This document shows positions 1,650-21,480 of a stretch of DNA of 27,590 bases, in pieces. Numbering within the stretch: position 1 is the stretch's first letter; each line of letters opens with the position of its first letter. The translations under genes and the position numbers were made by a program. Below the pieces are notes generated by a model that had not been told where the DNA came from, did no database searches, and saw only the letters and a list, made by a program, of their open reading frames with translations. The DNA lies in the IMG/VR virus record IMGVR_UViG_3300044972_002288, positions 1 through 27,590 of that record; one strand, written 5' to 3'. Source of the stretch: a virus.

Positions 1650-4183
1650 TGCCAAACAATGCACCAAAGACTTACATCTATTTCAGAATTCGGTCGGCCC
1701 CATTGCCATCCACGATTGATCCGGCCAACCTTGACCCGTCCTCAATGGGCATCCAGATCAGTTCTGTTCGCACATGGCAACTGCAAGGCACTCCGTTCCT
1801 AGAATTTGCGGTTATCGGGAAAGGGCCACAGAAAAGCCCCGTTTCAGCCCCATTGTCGGTGAACCCTGATAATGTTTGGTCGTTGCAGGGTGCTGAGGTT
1901 CGAGTTTATCACGACTTTCGGGTAACGGCGTCTGCATTCAGCCCAAACGGAGTAACGGACTGTCCGTTGATATTCTGTGGCGATGTCCACGAGATACGCC
2001 CCACAGAGACTCCAGAAAACCCATGGCACGCATTCTCTTGTGCGGCCAGAGGACTGGTATCGCGTGCAGAGCGTGTCCCTGTGACAAGTCCAATTGACAA
2101 TAGTGATTCAATTCGGTTCAACATGAACGCGCTACTCAGCGAATACCAGCCTACGACAGGCGGAAAATCGCTGGGCGGAGCCATAAAAATGGTTCTCGGT
2201 TCGTTCGCAGTTGCGTTCAACTTATTTAAAAACGGAATTGGGGCATACACCTTTAAGAACAGCAGCGGAACGGTCGTTCCAAGCACAATCTATAATAGCG
2301 TAGCGGGAACCTACTCGCTAAATATTGACGGTGTCGCACAGTACGCAGTCACAGCCGAGATTGATGCAACGACAAGCAGCGACCTTGACAAGATCACGCT
2401 GGTTCCTCCGTTTGAGTTCCGGATCTCCGGAGATAACGCTGTTGCATCCATCCAGCAAACGCTCGATGCATACTGCCCTAACTTTGGCATGGTTGTGCTT
2501 CCAACTGGATTGATCCGGTTTTACGACATGCGGGTTTTTGCTGCAACTTCGATCGATCTTCAAGACAAAGCGATCGACGGGTTCTCGTACAGCAAATCCA
2601 CACTTGGCTCTTACAGCCGAGTTATGGTTCGCGGTGGCCCCAAGGTCGTTCCATATTACTGCCAGTGGTCTATCCCTCGCAGCAGTTCGACCTACAATCT
2701 TGACGACTCTCCGGATCTGCTGAGGTTCAACGGCTCTCTTGTCGAGTATTTTGACTCCACGGGCCTGACAAACACAACCGCAAAAGAGCAGTTCAAGCAC
2801 TCAGACTACACATGGGGCCGCACCTTATTATCAACGGGAGACGTGTATTTTTCGCTTGGCAATACAACCCTGCCGTCAAATCAAATCCGGCTCGTCCCTG
2901 ACACAGGAAACATCACAGGTAGAAGCGTCCCAAACCTGAAAGAGTGGATTGCTGACGAGCTGACGATGGTTGACGGTGGAACGGCATCGAGAAGAGAATG
3001 CCGTATCGTTGTGCGTCGCAAGCTGACAAATCATGTCGGCGGAGCCAGTATCGATGTTCGCGTGGATTCTGGAGAGTTCCTTGTCTCGTCAAACGAGCAG
3101 CTTCTTGACCCTGCGACAACCTGTAATATTACTACAGCTCCAAACGTGGATCGCCCCCCTGCTGATACAGCTTTAAACACTTATTCGCATCGATATGAGC
3201 TTTACGGTTACACTCGAAAAGGATCGGTAACCTGGCGAAGGTACAAGGTTCAGCTGGACGGCATTGCCTCAACGTCTTCACTGATGACCACCCAAAAGGG
3301 CATGGGGCGAATCTTGGGAACGGTTTTCCCGTCCGGAGCCGATGGACTGTGCTTCTCGCAAATTGGCGTAAACTCGATCGCCTACGATGCAAGCCGAACC
3401 CGCAAGGCATGGTATCCCGAGTGTCTTGTGGAGTTCCGGCAAAGGTCTGGGTCGGTCTGGTCGTACAATTCGTTCTGGACATCGTTTCGAATTGATCCAA
3501 CCAACAATATTATCGTCCTGAATCGCCCTTCGGTCGTTGACGCCAACAACAACGGGACAACCGGAAACTATACCTCGAAGACTCCTCCATGGGACACCGG
3601 AGCCGCAAACGGCACAACAGACCAGCCGTTTCAGATCGTGCCGTACAATATCAAGGCCCTGCTGCCAGTGTACGAAGGCACTCAAGAAGCGGTATACCCT
3701 CACTATGATGCCAATGGGACAATTGCCTCTGGAGAGTCCGAGGCCAAGGTTAAAACCATTTACGGCATGAGCAGAGATCTGATCATCCACATTCCCGACT
3801 GGTACGACAACCGCGACCAGTCCTATGCGGATCAGTACGCAAAAGAGCTGTGGGACAGCGTTCAGCAGCCCCAGATCGATGGTGGATTTGCATGGGTGGT
3901 CGGCACTCCAGACCCCTCTTCTGAGTGGGACTACAAGGGTATTTATGCAAATGGCACGCTCCAGGGGTTCAACGTCACTGTCACCGAAGGTTGCAACTCA
4001 TCCACCGGAAGCGGTGTTGAGGAGTGTTCCCTGGTGATGACATCAGCGGACGTGCGATACCAGACGGGCCGAAAGCCTTACACGATCATCGGATTTTCTA
4101 CGGCAAAGCCAAGGTCTGGGATGCCAATGCGGGACTTCCACAGCTTTGAAGACCATCTCGCAAGAGATCCAAACATCATTTGA
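1649..4183 (+). CDS. Tail hub/baseplate-like protein, 844 aa
   Basis: The long ORF starts at the ATG overlapping the previous stop. The N-terminal ~150 residues look like a beta-rich tail-protein domain with phrases such as VRVYHDFRVTA and LIFCGDVHEIRP. Around residues 270-340 a segment with DAYCPNFGMVVLPTGLIRFY, then FSYSKSTLGSYSRVMVRGG, resembles the way phage tail-hub proteins (gpD/gp27-like fold) are written. The C-terminal half is rich in Thr, Asn, Tyr and Gly, as in surface-exposed virion proteins. No signal peptide or membrane segment is seen. Following the tape-measure candidate and preceding a tail-tip-like gene, it would sit at the distal tail. The virion assignment is fairly safe; the hub assignment is inference from weak patterns and position. 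Confidence 0.55.
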   Translation: MPNNAPKTYIYFRIRSAPLPSTIDPANLDPSSMGIQISSVRTWQLQGTPFLEFAVIGKGPQKSPVSAPLSVNPDNVWSLQGAEVRVYHDFRVTASAFSPNGVTDCPLIFCGDVHEIRPTETPENPWHAFSCAARGLVSRAERVPVTSPIDNSDSIRFNMNALLSEYQPTTGGKSLGGAIKMVLGSFAVAFNLFKNGIGAYTFKNSSGTVVPSTIYNSVAGTYSLNIDGVAQYAVTAEIDATTSSDLDKITLVPPFEFRISGDNAVASIQQTLDAYCPNFGMVVLPTGLIRFYDMRVFAATSIDLQDKAIDGFSYSKSTLGSYSRVMVRGGPKVVPYYCQWSIPRSSSTYNLDDSPDLLRFNGSLVEYFDSTGLTNTTAKEQFKHSDYTWGRTLLSTGDVYFSLGNTTLPSNQIRLVPDTGNITGRSVPNLKEWIADELTMVDGGTASRRECRIVVRRKLTNHVGGASIDVRVDSGEFLVSSNEQLLDPATTCNITTAPNVDRPPADTALNTYSHRYELYGYTRKGSVTWRRYKVQLDGIASTSSLMTTQKGMGRILGTVFPSGADGLCFSQIGVNSIAYDASRTRKAWYPECLVEFRQRSGSVWSYNSFWTSFRIDPTNNIIVLNRPSVVDANNNGTTGNYTSKTPPWDTGAANGTTDQPFQIVPYNIKALLPVYEGTQEAVYPHYDANGTIASGESEAKVKTIYGMSRDLIIHIPDWYDNRDQSYADQYAKELWDSVQQPQIDGGFAWVVGTPDPSSEWDYKGIYANGTLQGFNVTVTEGCNSSTGSGVEECSLVMTSADVRYQTGRKPYTIIGFSTAKPRSGMPMRDFHSFEDHLARDPNII

Positions 4184-6112: not shown

Positions 6113-7177
6113 TCATCCCACATCCTCCGAGACCTTCTTGGCCAGCGTCGTGGAAATCTCTGCGTAAATCTCCGTAGTCTTGGCAGATGAGTGTCCTAGA
6201 GCAGCCTGAGCCGCATCGAGGCCAAACTTCTCTCGCACCATTGTGGCGTGATAGTGGCGAATCTGGTGGGATGTAAAATGAGGAACCTTGGCTCTCTTGC
6301 AGGCGATCTCTATCCAGCGGCCATAGTAGTCTGAGGTCATCGAGGTGAAGAGCGGTGCGTGTGGGTCGTTCGTCTTCCACTCGTTGATCAGAGCCATGGC
6401 TTTTGGCCCAAGATGGACAGTTCGATCCTTATTCCTCCAGCGGTTCTTGTGCTTGTAAGGGGCATAGACGTTGCCATGGATCTCCGCCATGGTCATCCTG
6501 AGAACCTCACCGCACCGCATGCCTGTGTAGAGCTGCATCTTGAGGACAGCGGCGATTCGTGGCTGGCAGTGAGACAGGATCGATTCAACAACATCGCTCG
6601 GAACCGGCTTGATCTTCTTCGGCTGTTTGGCAGACGATCGTCCAGGTTTGATCTTTGGTACGGTCAGCAGAGCCGACCATACAGTAGGCGAGACCAAGTC
6701 CATCTGAGCCGCCCAGCGGAAAATGTTCAGGACGTAGTTGTGCTTTTTATTCACCGTTGTCAAAGCCAGTCTTTTGTCCACCCACATCTGAATCAGTTCG
6801 GTAAGACGGCCAGGCGAGAATTTTTCAGCTGGGTAGTCAAAAACCTCAAGATCTTTGACGACTCGGGCGACAGCTTTGTCCTCGTCGGAGTCTGGAGGTT
6901 TTGTGCGCTTTACATGCTGTAGGTATTTTGAGGCAATTGTAGCGACACTGAGTTTGACCTGGACTTTGACTTTAGGGCATGGCTCGCCATAAGCCATGAT
7001 GTTCGACAACATCTTGGCATATGACTCCGCCGCCTCGATTGATCCGGATAAGCCCGTATATATCTCCGTACCGTTCCAATAGATGTAGGAACGGCCCGAA
7101 GCCTTGTGTTGACAGTGGTTTGGGACAAGGGACTTCTTACGTCCCATGTCTGAGGTATCTATGATATATCCGTACAT
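6113..7177 (-). CDS. int: Tyrosine-family site-specific integrase
   Basis: The C-terminal domain carries the tyrosine recombinase residues: Arg221 in TGMRCGEVLRM, a likely Lys near 250 (NKDRTVHLG), His304 and Arg307 in TSHQIRHYHATM, His329 in LGHSSAKTTEIY and the nucleophile Tyr338. A core-binding SAM-like domain occupies ~75-165. Residues ~18-46 (VPNHCQHKASGRSY and NGTEIYTG) match the N-terminal pattern I associate with planctomycete integrases. The enzyme would cut and rejoin attP and attB for integration and excision. ATG 7177 is given, but a start at 7147 (MGRKK) is also plausible because neither has a strong ribosome site. The attP core lies ~130 bases upstream of its start, the usual arrangement. 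It is transcribed against all early genes. Confidence 0.93.
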   Translation of the reverse strand: MYGYIIDTSDMGRKKSLVPNHCQHKASGRSYIYWNGTEIYTGLSGSIEAAESYAKMLSNIMAYGEPCPKVKVQVKLSVATIASKYLQHVKRTKPPDSDEDKAVARVVKDLEVFDYPAEKFSPGRLTELIQMWVDKRLALTTVNKKHNYVLNIFRWAAQMDLVSPTVWSALLTVPKIKPGRSSAKQPKKIKPVPSDVVESILSHCQPRIAAVLKMQLYTGMRCGEVLRMTMAEIHGNVYAPYKHKNRWRNKDRTVHLGPKAMALINEWKTNDPHAPLFTSMTSDYYGRWIEIACKRAKVPHFTSHQIRHYHATMVREKFGLDAAQAALGHSSAKTTEIYAEISTTLAKKVSEDVG

Positions 7178-7394: not shown

Positions 7395-7682
7395 TTATAC
7401 CAGGATCTCGGCGGCGAATCCTGGCTTCAGGTGGTCGTTTTCTATCACGTAGTTGAACGCCTCTTTGCCTTCAGCGTACAACTGGTCAACCAGCACCTTG
7501 TGCTTTTCCTGCGTAAGGGCTAGCATGACATAGTTGATCAGATCTTGGAGCCTGCCCGACTCGCCATTTTTGATGACTTGTCTGGCCGCTATCTTCCGGA
7601 CTGCCTGAACAACCGGCTCAACCGAGTTCGCGTGCAAGCGCGTATGCTGGCTCGGCTTTAACTTTTCATTCGCTACGCTCAT
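7395..7682 (-). CDS. Small unrecognised protein, 95 aa (possible lysogeny regulator)
   Basis: It starts at the minus-strand ATG at 7682 after a good ribosome site (AAGGAGA). A mostly helical, charged sequence with a segment SVEPVVQAVRKIAARQVIK is visible; I cannot place a confident helix-turn-helix. It is the only minus-strand gene besides the integrase. Its promoter (7732-7761) is covered by an inverted repeat, and it diverges from the early genes, as a repressor or excisionase gene would. The role is inference from position only. The integrase could be co-transcribed with it through attP. Confidence 0.7.
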   Translation of the reverse strand: MSVANEKLKPSQHTRLHANSVEPVVQAVRKIAARQVIKNGESGRLQDLINYVMLALTQEKHKVLVDQLYAEGKEAFNYVIENDHLKPGFAAEILV

Positions 7683-8174: not shown

Positions 8175-8483
8175 ATGGGGATCGTCGAAACCGTGTCAGA
8201 TCTGCTCACCAGAGCAGCCGACTGCGCGAACGAATCGCGAAGCATTCAAAGCAAGTGGTCAGAGGTCGAGAAAGAAATCTTTGGAATTTTGATTTCAACT
8301 TCTTTAAGGCCTTTATCGGCGACCATTCAAAGTGGCGACGAAGAGTCGTTTTTTCAGCTCGACTGGACGAACCGACGCCTCATCCAGGTTCCAAAAGACA
8401 CAATTGTCGTCGATCTCAAGCGAGTGAGTGACGCCGGTAAGATACTTGCCAATACCGGCGAGGAGATTCAAGATGTCTACTGA
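8175..8483 (+). CDS. Unrecognised protein, 102 aa, upstream of annealing protein
   Basis: ATG 8175 follows a GGGGGCG purine-rich site. The product is helical at the N-terminus (GIVETVSDLLTRAADCANES) with a mixed C-terminal half (NRRLIQVPKDTIVVDLKRV). It has no recognised domain. Its last 11 bases overlap the start of the annealing-protein gene, so the two are probably coupled, and it may assist recombination or replication. Any function is unknown. Confidence 0.65.
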   Translation: MGIVETVSDLLTRAADCANESRSIQSKWSEVEKEIFGILISTSLRPLSATIQSGDEESFFQLDWTNRRLIQVPKDTIVVDLKRVSDAGKILANTGEEIQDVY

Positions 8484-9270: not shown

Positions 9271-9545
9271 TTGGAAGCATTGTTACGCTTGCAGGCAAGA
9301 GGCCTCTCTACGTCGTTACGGGTCATACCTCATCATACTATACCTGCACCCCCGTAATTGGCGGAAAACCTGTTGTCTGCAAGCGTAATGATATTAAGCC
9401 TCAGTCGGTTGAGCAACTATTAAAACGATACGAGGGGTTGTCGCCCAGGCATGCGACAGCCTCGTTTGCTCATAACCTTCCGGCTCGAAAGAAAGAAGCC
9501 CTTCGGTTCTCGCAGAAGATGTATCGCAGGGGCAAGACTCAATGA
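9267..9545 (+). CDS. Unrecognised small basic protein, 92 aa
   Basis: It starts at the ATGA overlap with the annealing-protein stop. The N-terminal half looks like a small beta barrel (GSIVTLAGKRPLYVVTGHTS, then a Cys-containing strand region); the C-terminal half is basic and helical. It may bind nucleic acid, but no family is recognised. It belongs to the coupled early operon. Confidence 0.6.
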   Translation: MIGSIVTLAGKRPLYVVTGHTSSYYTCTPVIGGKPVVCKRNDIKPQSVEQLLKRYEGLSPRHATASFAHNLPARKKEALRFSQKMYRRGKTQ

Positions 9546-14557: not shown

Positions 14558-14562
14558 CCTGT

Positions 14563-14590
14563 CGGTATAGACCAGTGTCCTAATGTCAGT
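14563..14590 (+). promoter_or_regulatory. CGGTA element, copy 1
   Basis: CGGTATAGACCAGTGTCC lies 5 bases after the DUF3310 gene stop. GTGT/ACAC downstream can pair weakly. The chosen start at 14616 is 53 bases on. Confidence 0.65.
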
Positions 14591-14615
14591 CAAACACATT
14601 TCTGGAGATACGAAA

Positions 14616-14978
14616 GTGAACGCAGATCCAATCAGGCAAATGTCAAAGCGAAACGAGCATAACATGCTTTCGCTTATGAGAATCAAAGAGTACGCACTTC
14701 TGACGATCCGCTATGCCAACGAAGGAATGCTGGATAACAAGCAGATCAGAGAGATCCTTTGCAGCAAGGATCTTGAGGAGTCAGAAAAGGCTCGGAAGAT
14801 TCTCGCCCTTTTTGAAGAACGCGAAATCGACCGTGAACTTGATCAAAACCCTCAATGCAATTCAAACTGCGAGTTTGAGGCAAACCTGTTGCGTGGACTC
14901 AAGCAGATCAGAGAACTGGCTGTCGGTATAAACAGTGGCAATTACGCCAAAAAGGAGTTGGTCAATGAATCGTTCTGA
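14616..14978 (+). CDS. Unrecognised helical protein, 120 aa, GTG start
   Basis: I chose GTG 14616 because TGGAGATACGAAA precedes it exactly as in the neighbouring cassettes; the upstream ATG at 14583 lies in the CGGTA element and has no ribosome site. The product is helical and charged with a Glu-rich centre (EREIDREL). It has no recognised domain. Its 3' end contains CGGTA copy 2 and overlaps the exonuclease start by 14 bases. Confidence 0.55.
   Translation: MNADPIRQMSKRNEHNMLSLMRIKEYALLTIRYANEGMLDNKQIREILCSKDLEESEKARKILALFEEREIDRELDQNPQCNSNCEFEANLLRGLKQIRELAVGINSGNYAKKELVNESF
14924..14949 (+). promoter_or_regulatory. CGGTA element, copy 2 (inside a coding region)
   Basis: CGGTATAAACAG is followed by the hairpin TGGC-AATTAC-GCCA (14936-14949) and AAAAAGGAG, the exonuclease ribosome site. 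It lies within the previous gene's 3' end, 41 bases before ATG 14965. Confidence 0.65.
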
Positions 14979-15885
14979 ATGGCTGGAAGTGAGACGCAAA
15001 ACGATCGGTGCTTCAGACGCCCCGATCATCCTTGGGATCAGCCCATGGAGCAGCCCACATGACATCTGGATATCGAAGATGGGCATGGATGCAACCGAAG
15101 AAACTCAGGCGATGCGTCTGGGTCATTACTTGCAGTCCGGAGTGGCCATGGAGGCTCTCCACCAGATTGGTGGATCGATCCTCTCCGAAGAGGACTTTGC
15201 CGTCCACCCAAATGGGTGGGCCTCGGCGACCCCAGACTACGTCATCCGGCAGGACGACGACAACGTCATCCTTGAAATCAAGTGTACGCATGAGAAAAGC
15301 TGGGACACTGTTCCTGAGCATTACCTCTTGCAAGTCCACTGGCAGTGCTGGGTTCACGGCATCGACCGTGCCTACATCGCTGTCCTGCATGGCTCTTCAC
15401 AAGTCAAAGTGTACGAGCTGCAAATCGACCTGTTTTCGGACTGGTTTATCGACTCTGTGGCCCACGTCAAAGCATGGTTTGACAACCATGTTTCACTTGC
15501 CGAAGAGCCAGCGATAACAGGTAAGCGGAATGACGCCCTTAAAGCGGCCATAAGGGCTGCTTCTGGCACTTCCGTTGACCTGAGCGAGGAAATCATCGAC
15601 AAGATGCGTAGAATCGCCCAGATCAAGCGAGAAACAGCCCCAGCGACCGACGAGCTGTCTGCTCTTGAGCGTGAGGTCAAGGAAGCGATCGGAACGGCTG
15701 AAGTTGGCCTGTATCAGGGCAAAACGGTCGTGACCTACAAAGAGACGATTTCCAAGCGTTTCGATACCAAGAAATTCCAAGCGGATCGGCCTGACATTGC
15801 CAAGGATTACCTCAGCGAAACGGTTTCGCGACGGTTTTTGCTGAAGGACGATCTGATTCTTTCCCTAACGGAGGTGACAGCGTGA
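14965..15885 (+). CDS. YqaJ-family exonuclease, 306 aa
   Basis: ATG 14965 follows AAGGAG. The YqaJ (lambda-exonuclease-like) core is clear: RRKTIGASDAPIILG at ~10-24, Asp91 in TPDYVI, Glu104-Ile-Lys106 in VILEIK and Gln123/Gln127 in the LLQVHWQCWVHG helix. The catalytic Asp-Glu-Lys set binds two metals and degrades one strand of duplex DNA 5' to 3'. The single strand left would be bound by the RecT/Bet-like protein (8473-9270). A Glu/Lys-rich helical segment and a C-terminal part complete a typical ~300-residue length. The SSB gene starts in a 4-base overlap, so the two are coupled. Confidence 0.85.
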   Translation: MNRSEWLEVRRKTIGASDAPIILGISPWSSPHDIWISKMGMDATEETQAMRLGHYLQSGVAMEALHQIGGSILSEEDFAVHPNGWASATPDYVIRQDDDNVILEIKCTHEKSWDTVPEHYLLQVHWQCWVHGIDRAYIAVLHGSSQVKVYELQIDLFSDWFIDSVAHVKAWFDNHVSLAEEPAITGKRNDALKAAIRAASGTSVDLSEEIIDKMRRIAQIKRETAPATDELSALEREVKEAIGTAEVGLYQGKTVVTYKETISKRFDTKKFQADRPDIAKDYLSETVSRRFLLKDDLILSLTEVTA

Positions 15886-16202
15886 TCAATAACTATTCGA
15901 TCGTCGGCGAAGTGGCTGAATCGGCAACAACACTGCCCAACGGTGGATACGCCAAGCTGAGGCTCAAGCTGACAAACAGCCTGAACCGGACAGAAATTGT
16001 CGAGGTTGTCAGCAAGGTGGGTGACTGGACATCGACTGCCACGCCTGGATCGATCGTTGCCGTGAGCGGGTCGGTTGGAGGTAAGATCAACGACAAAGGG
16101 TACTTGTATCTTTCTCTTTGGGCCAGAGACATCATCCTTGTCACTGCCTCTTCTGGAAAAATCGATCCTCCTTTTGACGAAAATGACGACGTTCCTTATT
16201 GA
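15882..16202 (+). CDS. ssb: Single-stranded DNA-binding protein, 106 aa
   Basis: It begins at GTG 15882 overlapping the exonuclease stop (GTGA). The order of strands fits an OB fold (NYSIVGEVAES, YAKLRLKLTNS, EIVEVVSKVG, GSIVAVSGSVGG, YLYLSLWARDI). It ends with DENDDVPY, close to the acidic DDDIPF tip through which SSB proteins bind partners. It has no long linker, so it is shorter than E. coli SSB. It would protect single strands in replication and recombination. Confidence 0.75.
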   Translation: MINNYSIVGEVAESATTLPNGGYAKLRLKLTNSLNRTEIVEVVSKVGDWTSTATPGSIVAVSGSVGGKINDKGYLYLSLWARDIILVTASSGKIDPPFDENDDVPY

Positions 16203-16254
16203 TTTTCTTCCTTTCTTCTGTCTATGCTGTCTATACAGGACAGGAGACTGAAAG

Positions 16255-16461
16255 ATGGATAAAGAAGTCTACAAAACAGAAGGTTATGCCAAGTCGCATA
16301 TCTTCACCATCCGAGCGAGCAGTCAGTGGCGACACTGGCTGCACAATCGGGCTGCAGAGGCTGGCGTGTCGCAATCCGAGATACTGGATCACATTATCGA
16401 AGATTGGGTACGCTTGAAAGACAAACCAATCCCACCCCGCAGATGGCCGCCGGAGACCTAA
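16255..16461 (+). CDS. Ribbon-helix-helix-like protein, 68 aa
   Basis: ATG 16255 follows AGGAGA. After a charged start, residues ~16-53 fit a ribbon-helix-helix: beta strand SHIFTIRAS, helix WRHWLHNRAAEAG, turn and helix SQSEILDHIIEDWVR. Such proteins bind operators as dimers. The tail is Pro-rich. It may regulate early genes. Confidence 0.6.
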   Translation: MDKEVYKTEGYAKSHIFTIRASSQWRHWLHNRAAEAGVSQSEILDHIIEDWVRLKDKPIPPRRWPPET

Positions 16462-16464
16462 ATT

Positions 16465-16824
16465 ATGAAACTTCCACCGTCCGATCCAACCCTTAGCTCG
16501 CTAACTCTTGAAGACGCTAAAAGGTGCGCTAAGTTCGCTGGCCGTATCGGATTCAAAGCGTCAGTTGTTAACCTGGGTGAATTCGGCCCAAAGGATAAAA
16601 GATATCACGCTTACGGCGTTAGGATCGAGGTCGATAAGCCGACCGAAAAAGTTCCTTTTATACAGCTAAAGTCTGTCAACATGTGGCGTTGCTGGGTTGA
16701 TGACAAGTTGTATTACAAAGAGCCAGTCGAGCTTATGTGGTGGGACAAGTTTATCCCTTCGCATGCTGAGTTGAAGGAAAAAGAGATCCACAAATGGATC
16801 AAGGAATACAAAGAGGTCGATTGA
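16465..16824 (+). CDS. Unrecognised protein, 119 aa
   Basis: ATG 16465 follows GGAG, 3 bases after the previous stop. The centre is mixed alpha/beta with basic segments (RCAKFAGRIGFKAS, MWRCWVDDKLYY); the C-terminus is a Lys/Glu helix. No domain is recognised. It is not preceded by a CGGTA element. Confidence 0.65.
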   Translation: MKLPPSDPTLSSLTLEDAKRCAKFAGRIGFKASVVNLGEFGPKDKRYHAYGVRIEVDKPTEKVPFIQLKSVNMWRCWVDDKLYYKEPVELMWWDKFIPSHAELKEKEIHKWIKEYKEVD

Positions 16825-16831
16825 GCTGCTT

Positions 16832-16873
16832 CGGTAAGTGAGTTGTTCAAGGGTTCTTTAATCGAGAAGAGGT
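16832..16873 (+). promoter_or_regulatory. CGGTA element, copy 3
   Basis: CGGTAAGTGAGTTGTTC lies 7 bases after the previous stop. A weak TTCT/AGAA hairpin follows, then AAGAGG. The next start is 46 bases on. Confidence 0.65.
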
Positions 16874-16877
16874 TGAC

Positions 16878-17186
16878 ATGAGCGTAGAAGTAGCTGTTTT
16901 AGAATGGTGGCTGTACGATGGCGAAGATGTTGTCATCGTGCGAGACCAGAACGACCAAGTCATTGATTTCATTGAGGCTGACGCCTCTACGATGAAAAAT
17001 TTCTTTGACTCTCAAAATCCTTTGCAGCCTTGGTATTCGCAAGATGAGTTTGTCGATTACGACGCGCTTCAGGAAGAGTTGCACGACACGACTAACCTGT
17101 TGGCCACAAGGTCTGAGAATGGCATTCGGATCTTCGAGCATGAGATTTGCGAAAAGAGGCAAGCTGCATTTAAGGCTGATCGGTAA
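16878..17186 (+). CDS. Unrecognised acidic protein, 102 aa
   Basis: ATG 16878 follows AAGAGG. The product is acidic, with a beta-rich start (EVAVLEWWLYDGEDVVIVRD) and an acidic helical remainder. No domain is recognised. Its TAA stop is formed by the next CGGTAA element. Confidence 0.65.
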   Translation: MSVEVAVLEWWLYDGEDVVIVRDQNDQVIDFIEADASTMKNFFDSQNPLQPWYSQDEFVDYDALQEELHDTTNLLATRSENGIRIFEHEICEKRQAAFKADR

Positions 17187-17200
17187 GTGTATTGTTCAGT
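17181..17200 (+). promoter_or_regulatory. CGGTA element, copy 4 (supplies the previous stop codon)
   Basis: CGGTAAGTGTATTGTTCAGT overlaps the previous gene's last codons, CGG and TAA. No strong hairpin follows. The next start is 45 bases on. Confidence 0.65.
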
Positions 17201-17225
17201 AACCCAAACGAAAGGAATTAGACAG

Positions 17226-17717
17226 ATGAAGATTGAGACGCAAGAAGATCTCGAGACAGCCAAAAACATGAGTTTCGCTCCCGACCAACTCGCCGAATTG
17301 GAAATTGGTTGCGAGATCTGGGACGTCAGAGGCGAAAATGAATTTGGTCAATCTTGGACTGGTACGATGTGCCGCTGGCCTAACGGGCGTGGAGCCTTTG
17401 AATGTGGCAGTGATAGCAGTTGGGGAGAATGGGAAGGTATTTTCCTGAAGCTGGATGATACCACTCAAGATTGGAAATTGATCTACATTGACCATGACGG
17501 TGAGACTTGGTTTCAAGTGGCGGTTGACTTTGAGTATTCCGCAGATGAGTTCTGGACTGAGTTGCGAGAAGATCACCCTGAGATTGCCGAACGATTTGGC
17601 GACACTTTGACGACCAAGGGAGTCATGATTCACGAGGATGAACTTGAGCAGGTAAAAAAACTTACAGGATGGGGAGATGGGCCAGAGTTCGCCCCCAATC
17701 CACTTTACTTGATCTGA
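17226..17717 (+). CDS. Unrecognised acidic protein, 163 aa
   Basis: I chose ATG 17226 because AAAGGAATTAGACAG precedes it; the longer frame from 17187 would read through the CGGTA element. The product is acidic and Trp-rich with likely beta strands (WDVRGENEFGQSWTG, GETWFQVAVDFEY). No domain is recognised. Confidence 0.65.
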   Translation: MKIETQEDLETAKNMSFAPDQLAELEIGCEIWDVRGENEFGQSWTGTMCRWPNGRGAFECGSDSSWGEWEGIFLKLDDTTQDWKLIYIDHDGETWFQVAVDFEYSADEFWTELREDHPEIAERFGDTLTTKGVMIHEDELEQVKKLTGWGDGPEFAPNPLYLI

Positions 17718-17718
17718 T

Positions 17719-17738
17719 CGGTAAGTGAGTTGTCAGTT
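17719..17738 (+). promoter_or_regulatory. CGGTA element, copy 5
   Basis: CGGTAAGTGAGTTGTCAGTT begins one base after the previous stop; a possible TGCC/GGCA stem (~17753-17766) follows near the ribosome site. The next start is 53 bases on. Confidence 0.65.
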
Positions 17739-17771
17739 CTCAATTTACCCTTTGCCAAGGAAGGCATTTCA

Positions 17772-17900
17772 ATGTGGTCTTTTTCGATAACAGTTTTTGG
17801 GATCTCTTTTACTTACGAGCGAAAGACTCGTAGGCCACGTAAACCTAAGGCGATATCCCTCAAAAAGATTCGCAATTTCACCAAATCATCCGTTCGGTAA
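17772..17900 (+). CDS. Small basic protein, 42 aa
   Basis: ATG 17772 follows AAGGAAGG. The first ~14 residues are hydrophobic/aromatic (MWSFSITVFGISF) and the rest is strongly basic (RKTRRPRKPK). It could bind nucleic acid. Its TAA stop is formed by CGGTA copy 6, as in the 102-aa gene, which supports it as a true cassette. Confidence 0.5.
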   Translation: MWSFSITVFGISFTYERKTRRPRKPKAISLKKIRNFTKSSVR

Positions 17901-17926
17901 GTGCTATGGCTGGGGCGTTCCCAGCC
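17895..17926 (+). promoter_or_regulatory. CGGTA element, copy 6, with 7-bp hairpin
   Basis: CGGTAAGTGCTAT is followed by GGCTGGG-GCGTT-CCCAGCC (17908-17926), a perfect 7-bp stem. The CGGTAA supplies the previous stop. Confidence 0.7.
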
Positions 17927-17941
17927 AAATTTAAACCGAGT

Positions 17942-17961
17942 GGTATAGACTAGCCTATCAA
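17942..17961 (+). promoter_or_regulatory. Degenerate CGGTA element, copy 6b
   Basis: TGGTATAGACTAGCC is a variant of CGGTATAGACAGTG, 38 bases before ATG 17979. The first C is missing. Confidence 0.45.
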
Positions 17962-17978
17962 AGTGATTGGTCAATACA

Positions 17979-18242
17979 ATGCAATTAAGAATGGGCCAAA
18001 TCTGGCCAACATCGTCAGAGATCATCCGCATGGGCCTCTACGAGCGAGGCGATCTGCTCTGCGTCTTGGAGGACAGGCTGAAGGACTTGACGTGGCTTAT
18101 GGTCGCGTCCGAGGCCAGAGAGTTCTCCCCTTCTTTTTCGCTTTCGTATGGCGAGCTTGTGAGTGAGAGCGTGCAGATCGAGGACTTGGTCAACCTGATC
18201 AAGGCAGTGGGCTGGGAGTATGAGGGCGACCCGAACGCATGA
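17979..18242 (+). CDS. Unrecognised protein, 87 aa
   Basis: The frame is open from TTG 17967; ATG 17979 is preferred but no strong ribosome site precedes either, which is unlike the neighbouring cassettes. The product is helical with an acidic, Leu-rich middle (LLCVLEDRLKDLTWLM) and a C-terminal helix (IEDLVNLIKAVGWEY). It has no recognised domain. Confidence 0.6.
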   Translation: MQLRMGQIWPTSSEIIRMGLYERGDLLCVLEDRLKDLTWLMVASEAREFSPSFSLSYGELVSESVQIEDLVNLIKAVGWEYEGDPNA

Positions 18243-18245
18243 GGT

Positions 18246-18280
18246 CGGTATGGACGATGCCCAGTCAATCGGGGCTGGGC
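18246..18280 (+). promoter_or_regulatory. CGGTA element, copy 7, with 6-bp hairpin
   Basis: CGGTATGGACGAT is followed by GCCCAG-10 bases-CTGGGC (18259-18280), then AAGGGGA. It begins 3 bases after the previous stop and 54 before ATG 18300. Confidence 0.7.
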
Positions 18281-18299
18281 TTAACACAAGGGGATTGAG

Positions 18300-18596
18300 A
18301 TGAAGTTCAGATCATACGAGATTGGATTAGTCGGCAAGTATCAGGGCAAAACGGGTAGCCCAGATGACACTTACATCGAGCGAATCTTTGAAGGTGAACC
18401 AGAAGACGATGATTCTTTTGTCGAGTCTTTTTGGACTCTTTACGGTCGCCTTTCTGATGGTCGAGCAATTGCGGTTTTTAATTCGAACTGCTTTCAGGGC
18501 TGTTTGGATATATACAGCCACATTACTGGACATCATCCGAATTTGCCTACGCCAGACTGCGACAATTCTTACGAAGTGACAGGGCTTTGGCCTTAA
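18300..18596 (+). CDS. Unrecognised protein, 98 aa
   Basis: ATG 18300 follows AAGGGGATTGAG. Likely mixed alpha/beta with an acidic patch (EGEPEDDDSF) and a C-terminal His/Pro region (HITGHHPNLPTPDC). No domain is recognised. Confidence 0.65.
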   Translation: MKFRSYEIGLVGKYQGKTGSPDDTYIERIFEGEPEDDDSFVESFWTLYGRLSDGRAIAVFNSNCFQGCLDIYSHITGHHPNLPTPDCDNSYEVTGLWP

Positions 18597-18597
18597 T

Positions 18598-18625
18598 CGG
18601 TATGAGCAGTGTCAGTCACAACCCC
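18598..18625 (+). promoter_or_regulatory. CGGTA element, copy 8
   Basis: CGGTATGAGCAGTGTCAGTC begins one base after the previous stop; GTG/CAC can pair weakly. The next start is 48 bases on, after AAAGGAA. Confidence 0.65.
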
Positions 18626-18645
18626 ACAATTCGAAAGGAAATACA

Positions 18646-18825
18646 ATGCTAGGCGAAATCGGATATTTGATCACTTTTGTCCACCCTAACAGCCGCAAAA
18701 AAGGCTCTTTTAAAACGTATTTTCCGCCTGAGGATTCGGCTGACGCCTTACGTAAGGCTAAAGCCATTGCAAAAAAGCACAGGTCTATTGGTTGCACCAA
18801 GGTCAAGGTCTCTGAGTGCGTCTAA
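18646..18825 (+). CDS. Small basic protein, 59 aa
   Basis: ATG 18646 follows AAAGGAA. The product begins MLGEIGYLITFVHP, then a basic helical segment (ALRKAKAIAKKHRS) and a Cys-containing end. It is a short alpha/beta protein with no recognised domain. The cassette layout around it matches the neighbours. Confidence 0.6.
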   Translation: MLGEIGYLITFVHPNSRKKGSFKTYFPPEDSADALRKAKAIAKKHRSIGCTKVKVSECV

Positions 18826-18835
18826 TCAGCCTGAT

Positions 18836-18860
18836 CGGTATAGACAGTGTCAGTGGTCAA
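18836..18860 (+). promoter_or_regulatory. CGGTA element, copy 9
   Basis: CGGTATAGACAGTGTCAGTG is close to the consensus. It lies 10 bases after the previous stop and 57 before ATG 18893, with AACAACAGTAACGAACGGAG following. Confidence 0.7.
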
Positions 18861-18892
18861 TACAACAACAGTAACGAACGGAGATAGATGCC

Positions 18893-19171
18893 ATGATTAT
18901 GAAATACAAAACCAAGCGTGACGTTAACGGCAACAGCCGTGCATTGTGGGTCATATTTGCGAATCATCGCATTAATGACGAGGGCATTCTGACGTTTTTT
19001 CCTAAGGCAAAGCCAAAGGTTTACCGTGATTTTTATGGCTCGTCAAATGAGGTTAGAGATCTGATCAACATGTACCAGATCAGGCCCATCGAGGTAGATA
19101 TTACGCCTGGCACGTACAGAGCAATCTTGTCAAACAAGCAAAACGAATGGGAAATCATGTCTTGTGGTTGA
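18893..19171 (+). CDS. Unrecognised protein, 92 aa
   Basis: ATG 18893 follows CGGAGATAG; ATG 18899 is also possible. The product is mixed alpha/beta with basic segments and a C-terminal Cys-Gly. It has no recognised domain. Confidence 0.65.
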   Translation: MIMKYKTKRDVNGNSRALWVIFANHRINDEGILTFFPKAKPKVYRDFYGSSNEVRDLINMYQIRPIEVDITPGTYRAILSNKQNEWEIMSCG

Positions 19172-19173
19172 TC

Positions 19174-19200
19174 CGGTATGAGCAGTGCCAGTTTCACCAA
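19174..19200 (+). promoter_or_regulatory. CGGTA element, copy 10
   Basis: CGGTATGAGCAGTGCCAGTT lies 2 bases after the previous stop, 46 before ATG 19220. The ATG inside the element (19178) has no ribosome site and is not taken as a start. Confidence 0.7.
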
Positions 19201-19219
19201 CAACTCGAAAGGAATAGCA

Positions 19220-19381
19220 ATGCGTATTGAGATCGTATCGTTCAAGGGGCATCACGTCCTTTACGCCAATGGCGAGCCGATTGCCCATGCATATCGGCCT
19301 GAGCAGAAGGCTGAATTACAGACTTTATATGAGAAATTGCTACAGCGTATGGGCCAAAATCCAGCGGATTCAGCGGAATAA
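19220..19381 (+). CDS. Small unrecognised protein, 53 aa
   Basis: ATG 19220 follows AAAGGAATAG. It begins with beta-like residues (MRIEIVSFKGHHVLYANGEP) and continues as a polar helix. It has no recognised domain. The following gene has only a degenerate element before it. Confidence 0.6.
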   Translation: MRIEIVSFKGHHVLYANGEPIAHAYRPEQKAELQTLYEKLLQRMGQNPADSAE

Positions 19382-19424
19382 CTATTGTCGGATCATCAAC
19401 AACAACAGCAACGGAGCAGGAATC

Positions 19425-19721
19425 ATGTCTACGGTCGAGAAAACACGGTCGAGAGTGTCAGAGCGGTCATGGGTCAAGGCCCAGCGTAAAGAGGCCGCAA
19501 AGGCCTATAAGACGCCCAACAGGCGGGTTTACTGTTATGACAGCCTCTATTGGGCTGCACGTCACAGGGGCCGCATGGAGGAGCATAAACAGCAGATGTT
19601 CAACTCTACGAGGCCCGGCCTAATCAAGATCTACTTCGATGCCTATATCTACCAGCGAATCGAATACAAAAAGTCGGTTGACAGGGCTAAGAGATGGGGT
19701 CGGCCTGTTCCGCTTCCTTGA
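19425..19721 (+). CDS. Unrecognised basic protein, 98 aa
   Basis: ATG 19425 follows GGAGCAGG; the longer frame from 19227 is out of frame with the upstream cassette gene. The product is strongly basic and helical (KTRSRVSERSWVKAQRKEAA) with Tyr-rich stretches and may bind nucleic acid. Its stop is inside a terminator hairpin. Confidence 0.65.
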   Translation: MSTVEKTRSRVSERSWVKAQRKEAAKAYKTPNRRVYCYDSLYWAARHRGRMEEHKQQMFNSTRPGLIKIYFDAYIYQRIEYKKSVDRAKRWGRPVPLP

Positions 19722-19733
19722 AGCACCTTTTTT
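19712..19733 (+). terminator. Rho-independent terminator
   Basis: GCTTC-CTT-GAAGC (19712-19724) followed by ACC and TTTTTT, overlapping the stop of the 98-aa gene. A 55-base pyrimidine-rich tract follows. Confidence 0.6.
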
Positions 19734-19790
19734 AGCTTTCTTTTAGCCTTCTTTTTTCCTTCTTCCTTCTTTTTCGCTTTGGCGTACGAG

Positions 19791-19863
19791 GGTACGAGCG
19801 AGCGTACCTGGGCGCACCTTGGCGGGTGCGTCCTGGGTGCGTGTTTTCATACCTGAGGGTATG
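19791..19863. promoter_or_regulatory. Three consecutive 6-bp inverted repeats
   Basis: GGTACG-AGCGAG-CGTACC (19791-19808), CGCACC-TTGGCG-GGTGCG (19813-19830) and CATACC-TGAG-GGTATG (19848-19863). Arms share a GGTR(C/T)G theme. The first two centres are 22 bp apart. GGGTGCGT also occurs as a direct repeat (19824-19831, 19835-19842). The C/T-rich tract 19725-19780 and copy 12 of the CGGTA element flank them. They could be operators for, or a structured leader of, the GP88 gene. Confidence 0.5.
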
Positions 19864-19883
19864 GGCCACGACTCATAGGGCAT

Positions 19884-19911
19884 CGGTATGGATGTTGTCC
19901 ACTAACGGACA
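19884..19911 (+). promoter_or_regulatory. CGGTA element, copy 12, with hairpin
   Basis: CGGTATGGATGT is followed by TGTCC-ACTAAC-GGACA (19896-19911) and CAACAAC. The next start is 55 bases on. Confidence 0.65.
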
Positions 19912-19938
19912 CAACAACAACACGAACGGATTGATACT

Positions 19939-20727
19939 ATGATCACAACACAAAACGTCCGCTTCTCACAAGCAAATGCTAAAATTGAGAGATTGTCACA
20001 AGTTGACAATCTACAGCCGTACCTTGACGGCGACAAGTCTATTTACAGTTTTGACCTGATTTCAGGTTATTCGTGCCCATTCGCTAACGAGTGTCTTTCC
20101 AAGGCCGTTAAAAACGACAATGGTAAACGAACAATTCGGGACGGAAAAAACACTAAAACTAGGTGCTTTTCGGCCTCACAGGAGGTTCAATATACGAACG
20201 TATATAACCTTAGGCTAGGCAATTTTGAGGCCTTAAAAGGCCTTGAAACGGCCGATGAAATAGCGGATGTGATCGAATCACAACTACCGGATGATGCCGG
20301 AATTGTTCGTATTCATGTTGCGGGTGACTTCTTCAACCAGCGATATTTAAAAGCTTGGTTGATTGTAGCTAAAAGAAATACTAGAAAGCTTTTTTACGCG
20401 TATACTAAGAGTCTACCATATTGGATTAATCTATTAGATGAGATTAACCAATTGGAAAATCTAGTGTTAACGGCCTCCAAAGGTGGCAAGTTCGATCGAT
20501 TGATTGATGAATTCAATCTTAGGCAAGCCGTGATTGTCTTTTCAGAACTAGAGGCCAAAACACTAGGCCTAGAGATAGATCATGACGATTCCCACGCGGC
20601 CGATCCAAGTAAACGTAATCAGTCCTTTTCCCTTTTAATACATGGCACGCAACCCAAGGGAAGCGACGCGGCCGCGGCCTTGACGGCCTTAAAAGGCCTT
20701 GGGTCATATTCCCGTAAAAAGGCCTAA
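19939..20727 (+). CDS. GP88-family protein, 262 aa
   Basis: ATG 19939 follows CGAACGGA. The family pattern of phage gene-product-88 proteins is clear: an N-terminal SCPFANEC (Cys46, Cys52), RCFSASQE (Cys76), then RIHVAGDFF (124-132), YLKAWLIVAK and FYAYTKSLPYW (152-162). The Cys residues could bind metal and the RIH..GDF segment may be a catalytic or binding core. Its function is unknown. The C-terminal ~60 residues are Ala-rich and end in basic residues. The gene is AT-rich but holds many GGCC and AGGCCT sites, unlike its neighbours. Confidence 0.85.
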   Translation: MITTQNVRFSQANAKIERLSQVDNLQPYLDGDKSIYSFDLISGYSCPFANECLSKAVKNDNGKRTIRDGKNTKTRCFSASQEVQYTNVYNLRLGNFEALKGLETADEIADVIESQLPDDAGIVRIHVAGDFFNQRYLKAWLIVAKRNTRKLFYAYTKSLPYWINLLDEINQLENLVLTASKGGKFDRLIDEFNLRQAVIVFSELEAKTLGLEIDHDDSHAADPSKRNQSFSLLIHGTQPKGSDAAAALTALKGLGSYSRKKA

Positions 20728-20738
20728 GTGAACACGTT

Positions 20739-20776
20739 CGGTATATCCATTGTGCCGATTACTTCGATCGGCACAA
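20739..20776 (+). promoter_or_regulatory. CGGTA element, copy 13, with 10-bp hairpin
   Basis: CGGTATATCCA is followed by TTGTGCCGAT-TACTTCG-ATCGGCACAA (20750-20776), a perfect 10-bp stem and the strongest of the series. It begins 11 bases after the GP88 stop and 63 before ATG 20802. Confidence 0.75.
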
Positions 20777-20801
20777 ACAACCACATGAAAAGGAATCGAC
20801 G

Positions 20802-21053
20802 ATGAACGAACAATGGGAATTGATACGTGATAAAATGCTATCGGCATTAATCCGTTATGACAAAATGGCGGAAAAAAGGTCACAATGGTGGAATAAATAC
20901 GCCATGGCTCATTACTGTAAAGCCTTACAGGATATGGATGAAAACATCATCCAAGGCTACACAATCGAACAAGCCTTGAATAAATCATTCATTCATAGTC
21001 CGCCCACTTGTCAACCTTATAAGAGTCTAAAACGTGTACTAGACTCTTTCTAA
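20802..21053 (+). CDS. Unrecognised protein, 83 aa
   Basis: ATG 20802 follows AAAAGGAAT. The product is helical, with an amphipathic first half and a WW pair (KRSQWWNKYAMAHYC). No domain is recognised. Its stop lies inside a terminator hairpin. Confidence 0.65.
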   Translation: MNEQWELIRDKMLSALIRYDKMAEKRSQWWNKYAMAHYCKALQDMDENIIQGYTIEQALNKSFIHSPPTCQPYKSLKRVLDSF

Positions 21054-21066
21054 AAAGTCTTTTTTT
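21041..21066 (+). terminator. Rho-independent terminator
   Basis: AGACT (21041-21045) and AGTCT (21056-21060) pair, with additional TTT/AAA pairs inside, then TTTTTT. It overlaps the stop of the 83-aa gene. Confidence 0.65.
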
Positions 21067-21085
21067 GGCCTATAGGACACCACAC

Positions 21086-21229
21086 ATGATCACACTGACA
21101 ATCGAACAACTAGACGCAATCATCGAATATGTTGCCAGTCAGCTGGCAACAATCGAACGTATCCAATCGGTATGTATAGTACCCAAGGGGGTTGACAAGA
21201 AACAATTCAAAGTGAAGGGAACCAGCTGA
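21086..21229 (+). CDS. Small unrecognised protein, 47 aa
   Basis: ATG 21086 follows AGGA at 21074-21077. Its stop overlaps the next ATG (TGATG). A perfect hairpin GTTGCCAG-TCAG-CTGGCAAC (21131-21150) and CGGTA copy 14 (21168) lie inside the coding region. The product is a short helix plus basic tail. Confidence 0.5.
   Translation: MITLTIEQLDAIIEYVASQLATIERIQSVCIVPKGVDKKQFKVKGTS
21168..21196 (+). promoter_or_regulatory. CGGTA element, copy 14 (inside a small gene)
   Basis: CGGTATGTATAGT is followed by ACCC-AAGG-GGGT. It lies in the 47-aa gene, 61 bases before ATG 21229. Confidence 0.55.
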
Positions 21230-21480
21230 TGACTACAATCAAAACCAAGTATGAGACGATCACAATCGACGATAAGATTATTGCTGACTATCGACGATTG
21301 ATGACGATGCCTCTTGATACAGAAGGCCTGAGTGGTATCACGGTAGATAGCTGTATTAACAATGGTTATGATACGGCGGTAGAGTTACTAGGATTGTGCA
21401 CTCTTGCTATCTGGCATGATTTTGAGTCAACGGCTATGTACCATACGGTACATACGGCAAGGCTTTACGAAATATTGTGA
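21229..21480 (+). CDS. Unrecognised protein, 83 aa
   Basis: The start overlaps the previous stop. An N-terminal strand/helix part is followed by a Cys-containing helical part (GYDTAVELLGLCTLAIWHDF). No domain is recognised. It is the last early gene. Confidence 0.65.
   Translation: MTTIKTKYETITIDDKIIADYRRLMTMPLDTEGLSGITVDSCINNGYDTAVELLGLCTLAIWHDFESTAMYHTVHTARLYEIL

Follow-up and report, generated by a model that had tools for sequence, protein, structure and literature searches.

In the 27,590-base IMG/VR virus record IMGVR_UViG_3300044972_002288 (analysed in full and referred to here as the window), a block of small accessory genes lies between the gene for the recombination nuclease YqaJ and the gene for the terminase. 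Almost every gene of this array is preceded by a copy of a 17-nt element, always in a single orientation. Comparison with related phage sequences establishes that this start-linked, one-orientation leader outlives the replacement of the genes behind it and marks the joints at which they have been replaced. The element is probably an expression leader. How it acts can be said less firmly: we tentatively favour a cassette leader that acts in the RNA and doubles as an exchange point. The serial layout is already known from the start-associated sequences (SAS) of mycobacteriophages; what we add is that the element is a cassette exchange site.

A 17-nt element precedes the array genes

The element reads TCGGTA[T/A]-RNRNR-[T/G/A]TG[T/C/G]C. 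Numbered from the T before CGGTA, its columns are T1 C2 G3 G4 T5 A6 W7, five further bases and then [TGA]13 T14 G15 [TCG]16 C17, the second box ([T/G/A]TG[T/C/G]C) beginning 12 nt past the first T. Purines occupy positions 8, 10 and 12 in 100, 86 and 90% of the distinct copies. An initial annotation of the window had described the repeat as CGGTA(T/A) followed by four to six bases, with 13 copies and a variant at 17942 near copy 6. All 13 positions are correct, and the variant exists (TGGTATAGACTAGCC). The repeat is real, but its length had been under-reported, the true unit being 17 nt with a second box. Two copies can be added, of which the one at 8435 is weak and the one at 19374 decayed (copies are named here by the position of their CGGTA).

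The same annotation had proposed shuffled sequence as a control, and enrichment over it was found in two ways, with a matrix scan and with an unseeded motif search. For the scan, we used a matrix of 19 columns built on 12 copies and took at least 12 bits as a strong match. The region from 14.0 to 22.0 kb contains 12 such matches on the plus strand and none on the minus strand, whereas 200 dinucleotide shuffles scanned with the same matrix gave a mean of 0.125 and a maximum of 2. When each copy was left out in turn, 10 of the 12 outscored every non-element site of the window, the exceptions being 17895 and 20739. Copy 1 scores 11.5 bits, compared to 20-27 bits for the other copies. The unseeded expectation-maximization (EM) search, performed on phage leaders, recovered TCGGTATGaaCAgTGcCA with a log-likelihood ratio of 87, compared to 56-69 for three shuffled sets. 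Similarly, CGGTAW occurs 31 times on the two strands of the window, compared to 15.1 ± 3.8 times in shuffles.

All copies point along transcription. As annotated, they lie 41-63 nt ahead of the start codon, with copy 6 at 84 nt (the start codons at 17772 and 17979 lie 1 base before the values entered in the spacing computation). The distance to the upstream stop varies from -61 to +163 nt, and the closeness to the previous stop noted in the annotation holds for 8 of the 13 copies, which lie within 2-12 nt of it. Two CGGTAA sequences indeed supply the stop codons, which end at 17186 and 17900. Because the distance to the start is kept and the distance to the stop is not, the element belongs to the leader of the gene that follows. 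Leaders can be alike beyond the element, as are those of copies 18598 and 19174 (83% over 53 nt).

We found no description of this element in the literature, and Rfam covariance models gave no match up to E = 1 between 14000 and 22000. Scanning 2.9 million IMG/VR viral contigs with the consensus DNA pattern returned 11 stretches, of which two were known relatives and nine were single matches, with no other serial array.

Genes are exchanged at the leaders

The relatives that we compared are metagenomic contigs. L005 is part of a 44-kb contig and has an array identical to that of the window, while the backbone proteins of L006 and L007 are 95-100% identical to those of the window. Identity to the window is 56% for YqaJ and 88% for the terminase of L008, 82-83% for the terminases of L030 and L032, and 57-58% for the YqaJ proteins of L032 and L055.

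Comparing the window with L006, L007 and L027, we counted 19 distinct junctions of high-identity blocks. Thirteen of them fall in leaders, which account for 13% of the array (binomial P 4e-8; the count rises to 15 of 19 with a tolerance of 15 nt), with the caveat that the mutual likeness of the leaders would by itself pull block ends toward them. Left junctions coincide with the first T of the element, or lie no more than a few bases from it, in copies 14563 and 18836 (L006) and 17719, 18598 and 20739 (L007). Right junctions lie at the start codon or inside the leader at copies 16832, 17181, 18246 and 19174 (L006) and 18836 (L007). At copy 4, homology to L006 and L007 is limited to 17180-17228, that is, to the leader and the ATG. 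Orthologous elements differ at positions 11, 12, 13 and 16. The orthologues of gene 19425 in L006 and L007 have canonical copies; the window's own is decayed.

A diverged form of the element is also found where the genes are not. For the array genes past 16824, no homologue was detectable in L008, L032 or L055; the four genes just before the array have homologues there, with 34-65% identity. Nevertheless, serial leaders are present in the arrays of L008, L030, L032 and L055 too, each with a core that is similar but diverged (Table 1). Judging from their position and core, we infer that these leaders descend from one element. In addition, the L008 counterpart of gene 8473, the gene behind the weak copy at 8435, has a copy at 3194.

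The initial annotation had suggested a module that travels with each gene cassette, and had counted a lack of conservation at the cassette boundaries of relatives as evidence to the contrary. The element is kept at these boundaries. The junctions in leaders, the orthologues of gene 19425 and the diverged leaders of relatives that lack the array genes are all in agreement with a module that stands before each cassette gene and is retained through gene exchange. Since the leader is the only sequence common to unrelated cassettes, it would be the exchange site for homologous recombination.

Table 1. Copies of the element, their stem-loops, the array and diverged elements of relatives (window coordinates)
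Feature	Coordinates	Strand	Following gene	Remarks
Weak outlying copy	8434..8450	+	8473	early operon; 10.5 bits; stem from position 12, -7.6 kcal/mol
Copy 1	14562..14579	+	open reading frame with GTG start, 14617	1 extra base between boxes; weak, 11.5 bits
Copy 2	14923..14939	+	YqaJ gene, start 14965	within end of preceding gene; 23.0 bits
Copy 2 stem-loop	14936-14949	+		stem from position 14, -4.4 kcal/mol
Copy 3	16831..16847	+	16878	L006/L007 homology stops at 16849
Copy 4	17180..17196	+	17226	gives TAA stop of preceding gene
Copy 5	17718..17734	+	17772	L007 homology from 17714
Copy 6	17894..17910	+	17979	gives TAA stop of preceding gene; variant half-copy at 17942
Copy 6 stem-loop	17907-17927	+		stem from position 14, -14.7 kcal/mol
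Copy 7	18245..18261	+	18300	L006 homology stops at 18294
Copy 7 stem-loop	18259-18280	+		stem from position 15, -14.2 kcal/mol
Copy 8	18597..18613	+	18646	26.5 bits; L007 homology starts at element
Copy 9	18835..18851	+	18893	26.7 bits; L007 homology stops at 18870
Copy 10	19173..19189	+	19220	21.5 bits; L006 homology stops at 19204
Decayed copy	19373..19389	+	19425	CGGAATAACTATTGTCG / GCGGAATAACTATTGTC; found by EM search
Copy 11	19883..19899	+	Gp88-like gene, 19939	163 nt past previous stop, 55 ahead of start
Copy 11 stem-loop	19896-19911	+		stem from position 14, -5.6 kcal/mol
Copy 12	20738..20754	+	20802	L007 homology from 20738
Copy 12 stem-loop	20750-20776	+		stem from position 13, -15.3 kcal/mol
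Copy 13	21167..21183	+	21229	inside gene 21086-21229; L007 and L027 homology stops at 21176
Copy 13 stem-loop	21181-21192	+		stem from position 15, -4.1 kcal/mol
Array of small accessory genes with leaders	16878..21480	+		gene content varies between window, L006 and L007
Diverged element, L032 and L030				TCGGCAAGTGCAGTGTCAGT and TCGGCAAGTCGGTTGTCAGT
Diverged element, L055				TCGGCAAGCGTATTGTCGG
Diverged element, L008				GGATTAT-N5-[T/C]CGGTAATA

Stem-loops and pairing within the element

We searched for the best uninterrupted stem, indexed by its first base, with a cut-off of -4 kcal/mol or better. That most copies are followed by a hairpin, as the initial annotation had it, turned out to be overstated. 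A downstream stem-loop is present in 6 of the 13 copies (14924, 17895, 18246, 19884, 20739 and 21168), and only three of these (17895, 18246 and 20739) are strong, at about -14 to -15 kcal/mol. All six stems begin at position 13-15 of the element: their sequences are unrelated, their place is fixed. Summed over 14 copies, the stem energy is -65.9 kcal/mol, compared to -17.5 ± 7.0 when the downstream bases were shuffled, and the copies of L008 show the same effect (-19.4 versus -4.7 ± 3.6).

The two boxes of the element could also pair with each other. Box 1 (GGTAW) is complementary to box 2 (WTGYC) in one register if G-U pairs are counted. Among 26 distinct copies, 91.5% of the pair cells are standard, compared to 32-61% with the register slid, and the covariation score of this pairing exceeds that of 496 of 500 shuffles. 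All four copies in which this upstream pairing is broken have a downstream stem-loop, versus three of the nine others (Fisher P 0.049). We regard the pairing between the boxes as suggestive only.

How the leader may act

The initial annotation had named a promoter, an RNA-processing site and a translational control element as options. In the explanation that we tentatively favour, the element acts in the RNA and opens a standard expression leader that comes with every small exchangeable gene. Behind it would follow either a stem-loop or a spacer that lacks structure and is often rich in CAA, and then a Shine-Dalgarno sequence and the start codon. The conserved UC and the weak 15-nt hairpin behind it (GGUAW-RNRNR-WUGYC) would serve as a recognition or processing site, for which about half of the copies would offer an alternative, a stem-loop whose 5' arm is the second box. 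A longer transcript would in this way provide each of its cistrons with a defined leader, an incoming gene would be expressed wherever it lands, and homologous recombination would exchange genes at the leader. We infer RNA as the active form, a protein or nuclease that recognises the element and homologous recombination as the maker of the joints. The case for RNA comes from the 5' arm of the stem-loops lying inside the element, the register of the pairing, the purines at alternate loop positions and the lack of a recognisable -35/-10 pair or phage polymerase. A narrower proposal is that of an RNA connector, in which box 2 has two alternative partners, box 1 and a downstream arm specific to the cassette, and a single factor recognises it, so that interchangeable small genes would be controlled in concert and exchanged at their control element; we hold this to be rather unlikely.

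Several observations speak against an action in the RNA. The stem-loops are absent in about half of the copies and are not enriched in L030, L032 and L055. The internal stem is weak and G-U-rich, and it is missing from the predicted minimum-energy folds of most leaders. The 26-row alignment is made of related copies, its five distant ones were picked for retaining box 2, and the pairing excess vanishes when all distant copies are included. Equal pairing counts would be expected of a DNA dyad if its halves differed by transitions. A terminator-like stem with a T-run at 19712-19724 precedes copy 19884, which suits a promoter better. Finally, neither a sigma factor nor a sigma-54 activator is among the families listed, which favours an action in the RNA, but these cover 25 of 55 in the case of PHROG, so a rare regulator could be hidden.

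Serial promoters are nearly as likely, the action in RNA being only slightly ahead. The element would then be the promoter core of each gene, read by the host RNA polymerase, whose specificity would be unusual or altered by the phage, and the stem-loops would sit near the 5' ends of short transcripts. The single orientation, the presence of one copy per gene, the distance to the start codon, the contiguous 17-nt block and the terminator-like site ahead of copy 19884 would all be in agreement with this, and the contig L023 shows that sigma-70-type promoters can precede many small genes of such a region. However, we found no sigma-70-type promoter (-35/-10 hexamers, 16-18 nt spacing) on the plus strand between 14000 and 20850 and no conserved sequence upstream of the element. 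No -35 partner is seen, and none of the 13 copies has the T that ends a -10 hexamer. The GG-N10-G spacing, with a G 12 nt on from the GG, recalls sigma-54, but the C that follows in the -12 box is unconserved and a Pfam search gave no activator domain. No phage RNA polymerase was recognised among the Pfam matches to 50 phage proteins (47 from the 44-kb contig). Moreover, the stems begin within the element, and transcription starting further downstream would halve them.

The boxes could instead be the halves of an imperfect 17-bp dyad bound as DNA by a phage repressor or a similar protein, serving as operator or, in the manner of the L5 stoperators, as a block to elongation that depends on orientation. 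They lie about 12 bp apart centre to centre as an imperfect inverted repeat, L008 has a related dyad (TTATC-N6-GGTAA), and the intergenic, asymmetric placement in one orientation recalls stoperators. Such a site would not be expected to keep its spacing to start codons, nor would it give the downstream stem-loops a role; strong copies are restricted to the accessory genes, the rest of the window having just one weak copy, and no matching repressor was identified. We therefore consider a DNA-binding site improbable. Still less likely, to the point of being hard to credit, is a pure boundary sequence, whose homology would be shared because recombination there gives viable mosaics and which would have no role in expression beyond the Shine-Dalgarno sequence. 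It would account for the coincidence of junctions with leaders and for the likeness of leaders of the same genome beyond the element. A neutral linker is not expected, however, to have a constant spacing to the start or conserved bases interleaved with free ones, and a recognisable, diverged motif persists in phages that do not share the array genes.

Should the leader indeed double as an exchange point, it would answer two questions at once. Accessory regions of temperate phages turn over fast, and how a new gene comes to be expressed at once is seldom clear; the leader would explain both the expression and the exchange.

The phage and the surroundings of the array

The gene set is that of a temperate tailed phage, which is uncultivated. 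It includes an integrase (6113-7177, minus strand), a replication-initiator-like protein, ThyX and YqaJ (14965-15885), the latter followed by the small-gene block and then by the terminase (22557) and the portal (24254). DNA comparison with an annotated phage collection returned no similar phage, and the terminase and YqaJ are about 25-31% identical to known phages among the best matches listed. Aligning the terminase with GTDB genomes gave no relative. The same alignment with the Gp88-like protein gave seven contigs of metagenome-assembled genomes from scattered phyla, and the five that we scanned had no element array. No tRNA that could point to a host was found in the contigs. The Gp88-like protein itself (19939-20727) is assigned to the Gene product 88 family by PF17338, with a best E of 1.8e-34 across the contig set, and by phrog_1392, with an E of 1e-17; relatives with 55-64% identity occur in many otherwise different phage contigs.

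Several sequences around the arrays may have regulatory roles of their own. Before gene 16255, the first after an SSB-like gene, all relatives have an inverted repeat of the CTGTAT/ATACAG type (window 16203-16254, L008 11230-11288, L032 5239-5298) that adjoins a possible -10 (TATGCT, TATACT, TATCCT). This may be a promoter that serves the array as a whole and is autoregulated. Gene 16255 had by eye looked like a ribbon-helix-helix regulator, which was unsupported by Pfam and a PDB sequence search. At 19712-19870, the terminator-like stem, followed by T-rich and GC-rich sequence, breaks the array before copy 19884, and similar T-rich then GC-rich stretches precede an array gene in L008 (from 14557) and L032 (from 7539). 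Another possible terminator within the array is AGACT-N10-AGTCT followed by seven T (21045-21066), past gene 20802-21053.

In L032, perfect or near-perfect dyads, GGTATTAAC-A-GTTAATACC and GGTATT-GGTT-AATACC, lie in intergenic positions before array genes and the terminase (7636-7656, 9477-9495) and are possible operators. L023 has TTGACT-N17-TATAAT before several small genes between 3077 and 11185, with 46 promoter-like sites compared to 20.5 ± 4.7 in shuffles; these promoters often share TGGACA over the start of the spacer, and the shared GGACA could be an operator. The contigs L076-L079, which have gene 17226 at 92-93% identity, have different leaders. In three of them (L077 4413-4502, L078 7911-8000, L079 7178-7267), small genes are preceded by a shared leader stretch, CTGGCTTGTTGCCAGGTCAGTGGTTATATTG, that has a stem of 5 bp and a loop of 5 nt, and this stretch is also found near the relative of gene 17226.

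Comparison with known systems

The boxB of lambdoid nut sites is a stable hairpin with a GNRNA loop and a boxA upstream, present once per operon. The element could form a 15-nt hairpin with a 5-bp stem, a 5-nt loop and alternate purines, for which the pairing register speaks. However, its stem is weak and G-U-rich, its loop is often not GNRNA, and it has over a dozen copies. No boxA was seen by eye near the element, and no N-like protein was identified. The serial sigma-70 promoters of L023 occupy the same kind of region at a similar distance to the start, but they have clear -35/-10 hexamers and the element of the window has neither. Stoperators of cluster A mycobacteriophages resemble the element as short, asymmetric sites that are repeated many times and oriented with transcription. 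Unlike the element, which is confined to one accessory region and tied to start codons and for which no repressor was identified, they are spread across the genome and bound by a repressor. Integron attC sites were also considered and set aside, since the only integrase of the window is a phage tyrosine recombinase, and no attC-like sequence was seen.

As far as their description goes, the boundary sequences of lambdoid phages (HK620, Clark et al. 2001, cited in PMC3029335) are similar in being short conserved sequences between small genes that coincide with mosaic junctions. Such junctions at a shared sequence are found here as well, 13 of 19 lying in leaders. What sets the element apart is that one motif recurs at nearly every boundary with a fixed spacing to the start.

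The closest precedent, and the one named in the initial annotation, is the SAS of cluster K mycobacteriophages, a short asymmetric repeat present in 11-19 copies per genome in one orientation, whose function is unproven (PMC12699233). Like SAS and extended SAS (ESAS), the element has one orientation and is found ahead of some of the non-structural genes, in different gene families, and about half of its copies have an extra inverted-repeat feature. The layout therefore fits, but the defining sequence and position do not. SAS is the 13-bp sequence GGGATAGGAGCCC, which includes the Shine-Dalgarno core and is placed 3-7 nt ahead of the start codon. In contrast, the consensus of the element is TCGGTAW-N5-NTGNC, and it lies 41-63 nt (once 84) before the start, with separate Shine-Dalgarno sequences downstream. 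The inverted repeats of ESAS precede SAS and follow a common consensus, whereas the stem-loops described here extend downstream from within the element and are unrelated in sequence. A leader that is also an exchange point offers a sequence by which the limits of cassettes, and the small accessory genes themselves, can be found in related phages that are uncultivated. Beside SAS, the element is a second and independent case for probing what serial leaders do.

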